Shown here piece by piece: positions 1 through 2,572 of a stretch of DNA of 64,000 nt. Made by a program: the position numbers and the translations under genes. Position 1 is the stretch's first letter, and the number at the start of each line of letters is the position of its first letter. Source of the DNA: an uncultured bacterium (lineage in GTDB: Bacteria; Bipolaricaulota; Bipolaricaulia; UBA7950; UBA9294). Location of the stretch: NCBI GenBank assembly GCA_903857865.1, contig CAIOGO010000013.1:1-64000 (forward strand). Direction: 5' to 3'. The notes beneath the pieces were generated by a model that was not told the origin of the DNA, ran no database searches, and saw only the letters and a list, made by a program, of their open reading frames with translations.

Positions 1-230
1 AGGTTGATGCCAACGTCTTTCGTCTCCACATGCCCGAGGGGGACACCCTTCCGACTGATGTTGAAGTCGGGCGCGCCGCAGGCGATGCGGCGGGGTTCGT
101 TCGTGGCGTCAATATCCTTGCCGCACCCTTCAAGAAGCGCTTCCAGAGCGGGGCGGTGGGTGTGTTCGGTGGAGTCGCCTTTGTCGAGGTTCTTGCGTAT
201 CTCTCTGATGTAGTCAGCAACGGCACTCAT
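1..230 (-). CDS. Type IIG restriction-modification enzyme, N-terminal fragment (runs off window)
   Basis: The reverse strand encodes 76 residues from an ATG at 230 to the window edge; the rest lies outside. The fragment has the N-terminal nuclease region typical of single-chain Type IIG restriction/methyltransferase enzymes: THRPALEALLE, then NEPRRIACGAPDF and GHVETKD. The PD-(D/E)xK residues would be D55 and E69-x-K71. A GGAGA Shine-Dalgarno sits just before the ATG. The family normally continues into an adenine-methyltransferase domain and a specificity domain, which cannot be checked here. A long repeated element (270-552) lies directly upstream. The family call rests on the motif pattern; function is inferred. 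Confidence 0.72.
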   Translation of the reverse strand, partial: MSAVADYIREIRKNLDKGDSTEHTHRPALEALLEGCGKDIDATNEPRRIACGAPDFNISRKGVPLGHVETKDVGIN

Positions 231-269
231 TCTCCATCTCTCCCGAGCGAACGATGGCTAGTGTGCAGG

Positions 270-552
270 TTTGCCGCGTAGCACGCCGACGTCCACCTGG
301 CCCACCATAGCTTTCCCACCTTTCTTCTCCTCTTGTTGTGGCGCTGTGCACAGAAACGCAGAACCTAGCGCGAGCCTACAGCCATGCGGGCATTCGCAGC
401 AAGCGCGTCTGTGGAAGGGAGTCTCCGGACTCAGTCCGGTGAGCCGCCCTGCAGGGCCAGAGGACTCAGCACAGATGCACCGCCTCAAGACTAGCCCTGC
501 CGCCCGCAGCAGGCCTTTGCCTGCAACGCGAACGGGATGCGTCATTGCTGGA
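270..552 (-). repeat. Copy A of ~280-bp direct repeat with conserved hairpins
   Basis: This segment is homologous, at roughly 80 percent by eye, to 2244-2531. It fills the gap upstream of the restriction gene and ends on the stop codon of the next gene. Both copies keep three small palindromes. One is GCAGGC/GCCTGC (509-524) around a CTTT loop. One is a GAGTC/GACTC stem. One is GCCCT/AGGGC (446-457), which in the other copy reads GCCCC/GGGGC, a compensatory change. It lies 40 bp before a minus-strand start codon, as copy B lies 36 bp before another. It may be a structured 5' leader, a small RNA or a recombination site. Confidence 0.7.
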
Positions 553-1624
553 CCCCACTGGACAACGACAACGACCGGTCAAGCTTGCCATAGGCCTTGA
601 GTAACCTGAGCGAGTCGCGGCCATCGATCAGGCAGTAGCGGCGTGGGCGCGAAGGTTGAACTGCGAAGGCTCGAAGGGTTGCGCGAACTGGTGGCGCAAT
701 GTCATGACAATGCTGCACGAAGAGGACGTCAGCGGGCTCCTGAGCTAGGCGAAAGATCTGATCGTTGTTCTTGCCAAGGTGATTGAGGCCCATTGGGCCA
801 AACTTTGCCGGACCCTTCAGGAGAAACGCTGCTGACACGCGCCTACCTTGAAGGTGCAGGTGGGCCGTGTAGAGATCTGACATCTCGCCGCCCCAATCCA
901 CGGCCGCGGTGCCACCAAGGATCTCAGCAAGGCAGGCTTTGAATGCCTTCTCAGAGACATTGTGGAGCACGTCGGCCTCCTGCTGAGAGGGGAGCGGAAT
1001 CTTGGTGACTTCCGCGAACTCATCGAAGTCCTCGAGGAACTGCTCGTAGAACTCCATCCCGAACCAGACCACCCGATTCGACCACGCCACGTCGTCGCTC
1101 TCAAGCCAAGGGAGCCCCATGATGAGTGGCCGAAAGGTCAGAATCGAGCTGCGAGCCTGGTGCAACACGGCGATGATCGAAACGTGGGTGCCCTGATGAA
1201 GGTAAGACCGGAACGTGTCTGAACTGATGTGATCCGTTCCGAACTCGAGGACTGCTTGCGCGCCGTCGAAACCTGCGACTGGAATAGGGACAGTTGCCCT
1301 GGGCGTTTCGTAGAGGTTCGTGATCGGGTTCAGGTACTCCGTCGAACAGAACAGCCGCCCTCTTCCCTGGCCCAACAGTTCGCGCAGGCTCGGGGCGGGC
1401 AGGGCCTCACATAGGTCCAGGGCCGTTCTCGCATAGACGTGGCTGATCTGGGTAGTGCGTAGCCAGTCTGGCGCAGACGGCAAGAGTGCGATTCGGCGGT
1501 TGATCTCGGCCGCGCCGGCCTCGCCAAGCACAGTCTCGACCAGGCGATGGTTGACGAAACCCGGGTCGATGTAGTGCCTTGTGGGCCGAGCCCGTTCCTC
1601 GGGAGAGAGCTGCTCGCGTATCAT
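542..1624 (-). CDS. Unknown protein with possible nuclease-like C-terminal motif
   Basis: A 360-residue protein if started at the ATG at 1624, which has GGAGGT just upstream; a TTG at 1675 would add 17 residues without a good ribosome site. I do not recognise a named family. The C-terminal half has a conserved-looking block: DWGGEMSDLYTAHLHLQGR, then SAAFLLKG, then a NNDQIFRLAQEPADVLFVQH stretch. An acidic residue followed by a hydrophobic strand ending in K is the layout of PD-(D/E)xK folds, but this is inference. It follows a DUF6650-like gene by 77 bp on the same strand, between the two long repeats and beside a restriction enzyme. The neighbourhood suggests a defence or stress role; no function is shown. 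Confidence 0.6.
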   Translation of the reverse strand: MIREQLSPEERARPTRHYIDPGFVNHRLVETVLGEAGAAEINRRIALLPSAPDWLRTTQISHVYARTALDLCEALPAPSLRELLGQGRGRLFCSTEYLNPITNLYETPRATVPIPVAGFDGAQAVLEFGTDHISSDTFRSYLHQGTHVSIIAVLHQARSSILTFRPLIMGLPWLESDDVAWSNRVVWFGMEFYEQFLEDFDEFAEVTKIPLPSQQEADVLHNVSEKAFKACLAEILGGTAAVDWGGEMSDLYTAHLHLQGRRVSAAFLLKGPAKFGPMGLNHLGKNNDQIFRLAQEPADVLFVQHCHDIAPPVRATLRAFAVQPSRPRRYCLIDGRDSLRLLKAYGKLDRSLSLSSGVQQ

Positions 1625-1701
1625 CGACCTCCGTGGACGCGACCTGACGCCTGGTTGCAGCGCCTGCCGCTGCAATCAGTTGCTCTGGGCGTCACTCTGT
1701 G

Positions 1702-2208
1702 TTACGGCTCACCCGCCTCTGGGTCATCCTGATCGACAATATCTGGGAGGATGGTCGCGAGATCTCCATCAACGTTGAGCCCATACGCCGCGGCTAGCCG
1801 AGCGACGTGGATGCCAAAGACTCCCCGCAGTTCGCCCAGTGCTCCGTTGAACTCCCAGCTTGCCCAGTGACCTCGATGCGCGCCGAACACGATGATCTCC
1901 GGCCGAGCGCCAACGGTATTCATGAACTTGCGGCAGGCCGCGCGGAGCGCGCGGAGGGAATCAGCGAGTTCAGTACTACCGCCTAGCGACTGGAGTTCCG
2001 TGGTGAGGAGCCGCCGAATCTCAAGGACCGATTGAACGCAGTGATCCGGCACTTCCATTTCGGAGGGGACGAAGAGAACGCGTCGGTCCTCGAGGAAGGC
2101 GACCACTCGCTGAGCGACCTGGACATGCGATTCCGGAGGGTTCCATGACACCCCGAATACCGGTGAACTCAGCCCAGTGAGGCGTGCTAGGACTTCCTTG
2201 AACCGCAT
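1702..2208 (-). CDS. DUF6650-like small protein
   Basis: A 168-residue protein with ATG at 2208 and a strong GGGAGG ribosome site 7-8 nt upstream. The N-terminus (FKEVLARLTGLSSPVFGVSWNPPES) and the following VVAFLEDRRVLFVPSEMEVPDHC recall, from memory, bacterial proteins filed under DUF6650; I cannot run a search. No signal peptide or membrane segment is visible. It is the first gene of a two-gene unit with the 360-residue protein downstream, and a copy of the long repeat lies 36 bp upstream. Families like this are scattered in accessory islands. Its biochemical role is unknown to me. Confidence 0.6.
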   Translation of the reverse strand: MRFKEVLARLTGLSSPVFGVSWNPPESHVQVAQRVVAFLEDRRVLFVPSEMEVPDHCVQSVLEIRRLLTTELQSLGGSTELADSLRALRAACRKFMNTVGARPEIIVFGAHRGHWASWEFNGALGELRGVFGIHVARLAAAYGLNVDGDLATILPDIVDQDDPEAGEP

Positions 2209-2243
2209 CGGCTCAACCTCCCGTCCACATAACGCTGATCAAG

Positions 2244-2531
2244 TTCGGTACGCAGCACACCGACCCCCGCGTACCTGATTCCCTACTTCCTGTCTCCCCA
2301 CTCCTGTTGTTGTGGCGCTGCGCACTGAAACGCAGAACCTAGAGCGAGCCTACAGCCATGCGGGCACTTGCAACAAGCAGGCGCGTCTGTGGAAGGGGAG
2401 TCTCCAGACTCAGTCCGGTGAACCGCCCCGTGGGGCCAAAGGGCTCAGCACAGATGCATCGCCTCAAGACTCGCCCCGCCGCCCGCAGCAGGCCTTTGCC
2501 TGCAACGTCAACGGGATGCGTCGTTGCAGGA
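2244..2531 (-). repeat. Copy B of ~280-bp direct repeat with conserved hairpins
   Basis: Second copy of the element at 270-552, placed upstream of the DUF6650-like gene. It fills most of the gap between that gene and the divergent Xre regulator. The hairpin GCAGGC/GCCTGC is at 2488-2503 and the GCCCC/GGGGC stem at 2425-2436. An extra GCAACG/CGTTGC pair near its right end is not preserved in copy A. No open frame is shared by both copies, so a noncoding role is more likely than a broken gene. Confidence 0.7.
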
Positions 2532-2572
2532 TTTGCTCCCGCCGCTCAGCGCCGCTGCCCGGCGAGCTACGG

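Follow-up and report, generated by a model that had tools for sequence, protein, structure and literature searches.

Duplicated elements in a Bipolaricaulota genome as probable decayed integron platforms in front of unrelated genes

Results

The window considered here is a stretch of 64,000 nt from an uncultured bacterium of the Bipolaricaulota (positions 1 to 64,000 of contig CAIOGO010000013.1, assembly GCA_903857865.1, here genome G000). Close to its beginning lie two copies of an element, copy 1 at 270-552 and copy 2 at 2244-2531, which appear as direct repeats of 136, 78 and 22 nt with 90-95% identity and align at 88.7% identity over 231 bp (E 5e-81); the duplication reported in the initial annotation is real and far above chance. 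The accompanying statement that each copy sits just 5' of a different gene on the same strand also holds. The gene behind copy 1 (3..230, minus strand), truncated by the contig start, encodes the N-terminal 76 aa of a type IIG restriction enzyme-methyltransferase (PADLOC PDLC03610, E 2.9e-16), and the one behind copy 2 (1702..2208, minus strand) encodes a DUF6650 protein of 168 aa (Pfam PF20355, E 1.3e-22). A second gene behind copy 2 (542..1675, minus strand), of up to 377 aa, with an uncertain start codon and no family found, has its stop codon within the outer edge of copy 1. A 27-bp sequence that includes a near-palindrome, TGTAAAGAATCCTTTACA, occurs twice in direct orientation at 2568-2633 of the window, over a TTGACA-N16-TACACT promoter and 5' of an HTH gene (2643-2858); the two probably form an autoregulatory operator.

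A third full-length copy is present in the same genome (contig C20, positions 101662-101954; 75% identity, E 5e-50) and a partial one in another genus (genome G015, contig C71; 77% over 97 bp), the latter being the single true match in a pattern scan of 84,980 genomes, where the other 41 matches were low-scoring or unscored. G027 has one more, weak relative (27 bits), in front of a GNAT gene. Two candidates were rejected as copies, G015:C91 because it resembles repeated coding sequence and G002:C144 because it sits inside a gene, and the plasmid and viral collections searched for the element gave no match or chance pattern hits. All four copies lie just upstream, on the same strand, of the start of an unrelated gene, encoding the type IIG restriction enzyme, the DUF6650 protein, a PDZ protein and an unknown protein of 240 aa.

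Of particular help in placing the element was an 18-bp box motif at the inner edge of the copies, TGCACAMTARYCATYGTT, which has 31 hits in related genomes and 0 in the control. In related genera this box closes modules of 60 to >200 bp that, at the sites examined, mostly lie 9-50 nt before the ATG of mostly unrelated genes (TIR-domain, HNH, GNAT and many unknown), usually with TTGACA-N17-TACTAT, a strong promoter, some 10 nt ahead of the box. Several modules stand in same-strand tandem, 1.0-1.4 kb apart, and several module types have only their 3' 60 bp in common. When the modules are aligned, conservation ends at CATTG^, and of the 28 sites at which TT comes next, 10 agree with TTRRRY (P 4e-6), a value to be read in the knowledge that the sites were found by a pattern ending in GTT, so that only RRRY is independent, and that related sites are not fully independent of one another. 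On the opposite strand of several modules the start of an integron integrase is found at a constant position (for example MKLFEQVHLACRAKHYSPRT, MKLLDQV). In the element and in such intI-attI regions, the conserved box TGCACACTARYCATCG ends at a G^TT crossover 133-136 nt from the divergent start codon. Near modules of G031, G020 and G016 there are attC sites, with R''/R' box pairs of 124-127 nt; in 0.39 Mb the attC pattern was matched 11 times, against an expectation of about 1.2 from shuffled sequence, the matches being counted strand-wise, with each true site counting on both strands, and one attC directly follows the gene behind a module (locus L250, 10899-11022). By these sequence features the modules are integron platforms.

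The window's own genome also retains a broken integron integrase on contig C16 (TIGR02249, 84 bits, E 1.2e-23, vs. 21 bits for XerC), interrupted by one stop and one frameshift; its start lies 134 nt from a matching attI box, after which an HNH-type gene follows. In a different family, a DUF6650 homologue belongs to a gene cluster behind such a module (E 4.5e-13) in genome G097, with a spacing of 136 nt. The cluster behind the platform at L288 (G097:C136, 3382-6432) comprises a 261-aa protein, DUF6650, a 200-aa protein, a TIR-like protein and a small membrane-like protein, and from reading of the sequences it has the appearance of a defence cluster.

The gene-proximal half of the window copies is homologous to these platforms. 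With copies 1 and 3 withheld, a profile of intI-attI regions matched copy 3 at E 6.8e-15 and copy 1 over 248..409 on the minus strand (nhmmer, 32.5 bits, E 9.8e-9), and copy 3 was still matched (E 4.6e-10) by an earlier profile from which the G097 and L162 sites had been left out. The corresponding segment of copy 2 (2239..2386, minus strand) reached 26.2 bits and E 1.1e-6 with a profile that includes copies 1 and 3.

In copy 1 an attI-like terminal box, TGCACACTAGCCATCG, occupies 252..267 on the minus strand; it is a dispersed motif, and in the aligned modules conservation stops at its G. The putative G^TT crossover falls between 252 and 251, and the captured part would start with TTCGCT at 251. 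The end of copy 2 (...GATCAGCGTTATG; 2228..2243, minus strand) is a degenerate attI-like sequence, placed by its alignment position, with its probable crossover near 2228/2227. By alignment to the modules that carry TTGACA-N17-TACTAT 10 nt before the box, a Pc-like region lies at 268..306 of copy 1 (minus strand), with TGCTAC at the -10 position (278-283), a 17-nt spacer and a degenerate GGTGGG at the -35 position (301-306); the third copy reads TTGTAG-N17-CGCTAT there. An ATG in the context CCTACAGCCATG occupies the position of the divergent intI start in all three: on the plus strand at 384..386 in copy 1, 135 nt from the crossover, at 2358..2360 in copy 2, at 133 nt, and in the third copy at 134 nt, the distance in bona fide or remnant intI loci being 134-136 nt. 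Copies 1 and 3 thus have an attI end at the fixed distance from a divergent intI start that marks a fossil platform, and in copy 2 this end is degenerate. A conserved mid-element TTGYYG-N17/18-TAGGCT was considered as a promoter; it coincides in part with the intI start region and can be dispensed with, so it is kept as a possibility only.

The outer half of the element is another matter. In copy 1 it spans 387..552 (minus strand), is conserved among copies 1-3 and has no detectable similarity to intI coding sequence; as a decayed intI it was tried and gave no signal. It is unaccounted for by the platform model, save that it lies where the lost intI would be. Its outer edge in copy 1 is a degenerate REP-like motif, GGTCCAGCAATGACGCATCC (535..554, minus strand), which overlaps the end of the upstream gene; the outer half of copy 2 (2361..2535, minus strand) has a more degenerate version of this edge at 2516-2535, with four mismatches to the motif by direct reading. 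The motif itself, GGTCYTGCRATCACGCATYC, is dispersed (26 hits vs. 1 in the control, in 10 of 33 related genomes), and genes for RAYT-type transposases in the family carry related motifs, several of them inverted at both ends; RAYT genes with such flanking motifs have already been described (PMC2817692).

Several further observations concern these sequences. An isolated fragment of the outer half, 79% identical over 43 bp and without a platform, lies at C18:94947-94989 of G000, downstream of a transporter gene in opposite orientation. Four RAYT-type genes of G000 (C22:100011, C22:9022, C10:123031 and C13:73671; L222-L225) are accompanied by REP-like motifs of the form GGGGTCAGATCTTCACT or GGGGTCAGGTCTTG, which in three of these genes are inverted at both ends, and have a -10-like hexamer (TAGACT, TAGGCT or TACACT) shortly 5' of the ATG, for which the motif provides the -35. 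Another dispersed intergenic sequence, about 100 bp long and unrelated to the element, has the same REP-like motif at its start (L168, C14:161148, and L191, C20:116511). L167 and L182 (G002) are alike over the 40 bp that lead up to the motif and part company immediately beyond it, which makes the REP-like motif a recurrent junction. At L160 (G027:C4) a transposase-like gene (IS110-like by reading) is apparently cut at the motif, about 0.5 kb from a RAYT gene.

Discussion

We take the gene-proximal half of each copy to be a decayed integron platform, consisting of the intI start region, Pc and attI, with a probability of about 0.8. The initial annotation had offered three options for the element, and of these it is the cassette boundary that finds support, through the homology of this half to the intI-attI platforms of integrons. 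As an integron platform the element is a variant, fossil and present in several copies, and it is neither a working integron nor an RNA element: the intact integrase that a functional integron needs is absent, the window keeping the intI start position only, and neither the window nor the surroundings of the third copy contain attC sites of the kind that make up a cassette array. Several points weigh against the platform reading. The window copies have no intI coding similarity beyond the start position (z below 1.6); canonical attC boxes were sought in the copies with negative result; the divergence of copy 2 and of the G015 copy is such that models made without the window copies do not match them in their own right; copy 1 has a Pc that fits the promoter consensus poorly, and no promoter on its strand passes a simple sigma-70 scan; and the outer half recurs at C18 as a fragment on its own.

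Mobile promoters are homologous promoters found before non-homologous genes. The copies could be such promoter regions, recombined in front of unrelated genes and owing nothing to an integron. Homologous promoter-bearing modules before mostly unrelated genes, several types of which have only the last 60 bp in common, speak for that explanation, and the same upstream region before unrelated genes is seen in both cases. We nevertheless regard it as improbable, for it accounts neither for the IntI N-termini on the divergent strand and their fixed spacing of 133-136 nt, nor for the sharp G^TT end with TTRRRY starts and the attC sites; the promoter of the present modules belongs to a platform derived from an integron, whose recombination end is defined.

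The box might also be the operator of a repressor that governs a regulon of accessory genes, as it contains ACAAT-AATC-ATTGT, an inverted repeat, and is found immediately downstream of the predicted transcription start. This seems very improbable, as the homology continues for 100-200 bp upstream beyond the box, taking in intI remnants, as a repressor site would not account for the end of conservation at G^TT, and as no regulator was identified.

The initial annotation had proposed, among its options, a conserved, structured RNA, either a leader or a small RNA, common to the two gene units, on the strength of three hairpins present in both window copies and of a T-A pair in one that is replaced by C-G in the other. 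The inverted repeats are indeed there, and perfect in copies 1 and 2. The exchange (GCCCTGCAGGGC / GCCCCGTGGGGC), taken as the mark of selection on base pairing, involves a pair that would close a loop of 2 nt, which is impossible for an RNA hairpin; hairpins 1 and 3 have broken or weakened arms in the third copy and in G015. Folding energies of the single copies are at the level of shuffled sequences (z 0.31, -0.72, -0.16 and -0.26 for the four copies), and covariation in the three hairpins does not rise above shuffles. RNAalifold applied to the four copies found 11 double-changed pairs where identically refolded, column-shuffled alignments had 10.0 +/- 2.9 (P 0.41), with a consensus energy no better than this null (P 0.66), and covariation on the opposite strand of the alignment was likewise negative. 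Naive shuffles had made the RNAalifold structure seem covarying, that structure having come from the same data. The further copies thus show no compensatory changes, the outcome that had been named in advance as refuting the RNA proposal. Rfam yielded no family for the element at gathering or relaxed thresholds, and the two window copies are about 90% alike in their outer and middle parts and 40-60% near the genes, the opposite of what a conserved leader beside a start codon would lead one to expect. With folding and covariation at the null, a shared leader RNA and a small RNA common to both systems are both unsupported, the structured-RNA reading is largely refuted, and we give it hardly any credence.

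Equally remote are a decayed coding sequence, which the initial annotation had allowed for, and a non-autonomous insertion element of the MITE or REPIN type: copies 1 and 3 do have an open frame of 95-120 aa, and the REP-like outer edge is related to the inverted motifs that flank RAYT transposase genes, but the three codon positions carry substitutions in equal measure (22/19/18) and the reading frame is shifted by indels, so that coding constraint is absent, there are no terminal inverted repeats (terminal complementarity is at chance), and the gene side lacks an inverted REP motif.

Returning to the decayed platform, the history that we envisage is as follows. An integrase would once have inserted cassettes at attI, by which each gene came to lie behind Pc, so that the gene behind each copy would be a former first cassette captured through IntI-mediated insertion. 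The integrase genes would then have decayed while the platform and its first gene stayed as stable expression units, in which Pc may still drive the downstream genes. Multiplication of the platforms could have come about by recombination-driven duplication or by movement as attI-ended cassettes. The 2.0 kb at 252-2227 of the window, with the DUF6650 gene, the second gene and copy 1, is arranged as attI - gene(s) - attI, and this order, found also in the tandem pairs of G031, G020 and G012, is that of the delta-attI-type or attI-gene-attI cassettes of mobile integrons (PMC12901181). Such cassettes are described as rare in class 1 integrons, have been shown to be functional with IntI1, and in its presence undergo excision at up to 100% (PMC12901181). 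The match suggests one route of spread, though simple recombination between platforms would also suffice. Unlike the cassettes of that study, several tandem pairs persist here, possibly because the sole integrase remnant seen in G000 is broken.

With the intI - Pc - attI platforms of class 1 and chromosomal integrons, the modules have in common the divergent integrase start, the promoter, which is clear in the relatives and weak in copy 1, an attI whose conservation ends at G^TTRRRY and the accessory genes behind it, and the same genome also holds the broken integron integrase. They differ in that the intI coding sequence of the window copies is unrecognisable, in that some relatives have many platform-like modules per genome rather than one, and in that mostly single genes lie behind each module and attC sites are rare. 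Incomplete integrons are well known as CALIN, clusters of attC without intI, and as In0, intI without attC (PMC9668308); what remains here is Pc-attI, mostly with neither intI nor attC. In the literature searched, the coverage of which was incomplete, we came across no account of dispersed Pc-attI platforms with neither. Detection tools based on intI or attC would probably miss them, and the integron history of little-studied phyla may therefore be underestimated.

The box offers a simple handle for listing captured genes, here those for restriction, TIR, HNH and DUF6650 proteins, and genes listed in this way may point to uncharacterised accessory or defence functions. The persisting tandem attI-gene-attI units provide a test of what stabilises captured genes after the integrase is lost. 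More tentatively, and with a good deal of doubt, dispersed promoter-carrying attI units may have evolved from an integron in this Bipolaricaulota family, the genes spreading as attI-gene-attI cassettes, each with its own Pc; expression would then be independent of distance from one platform, unlike that in classical arrays. The platforms may still express the accessory genes that they would once have captured.
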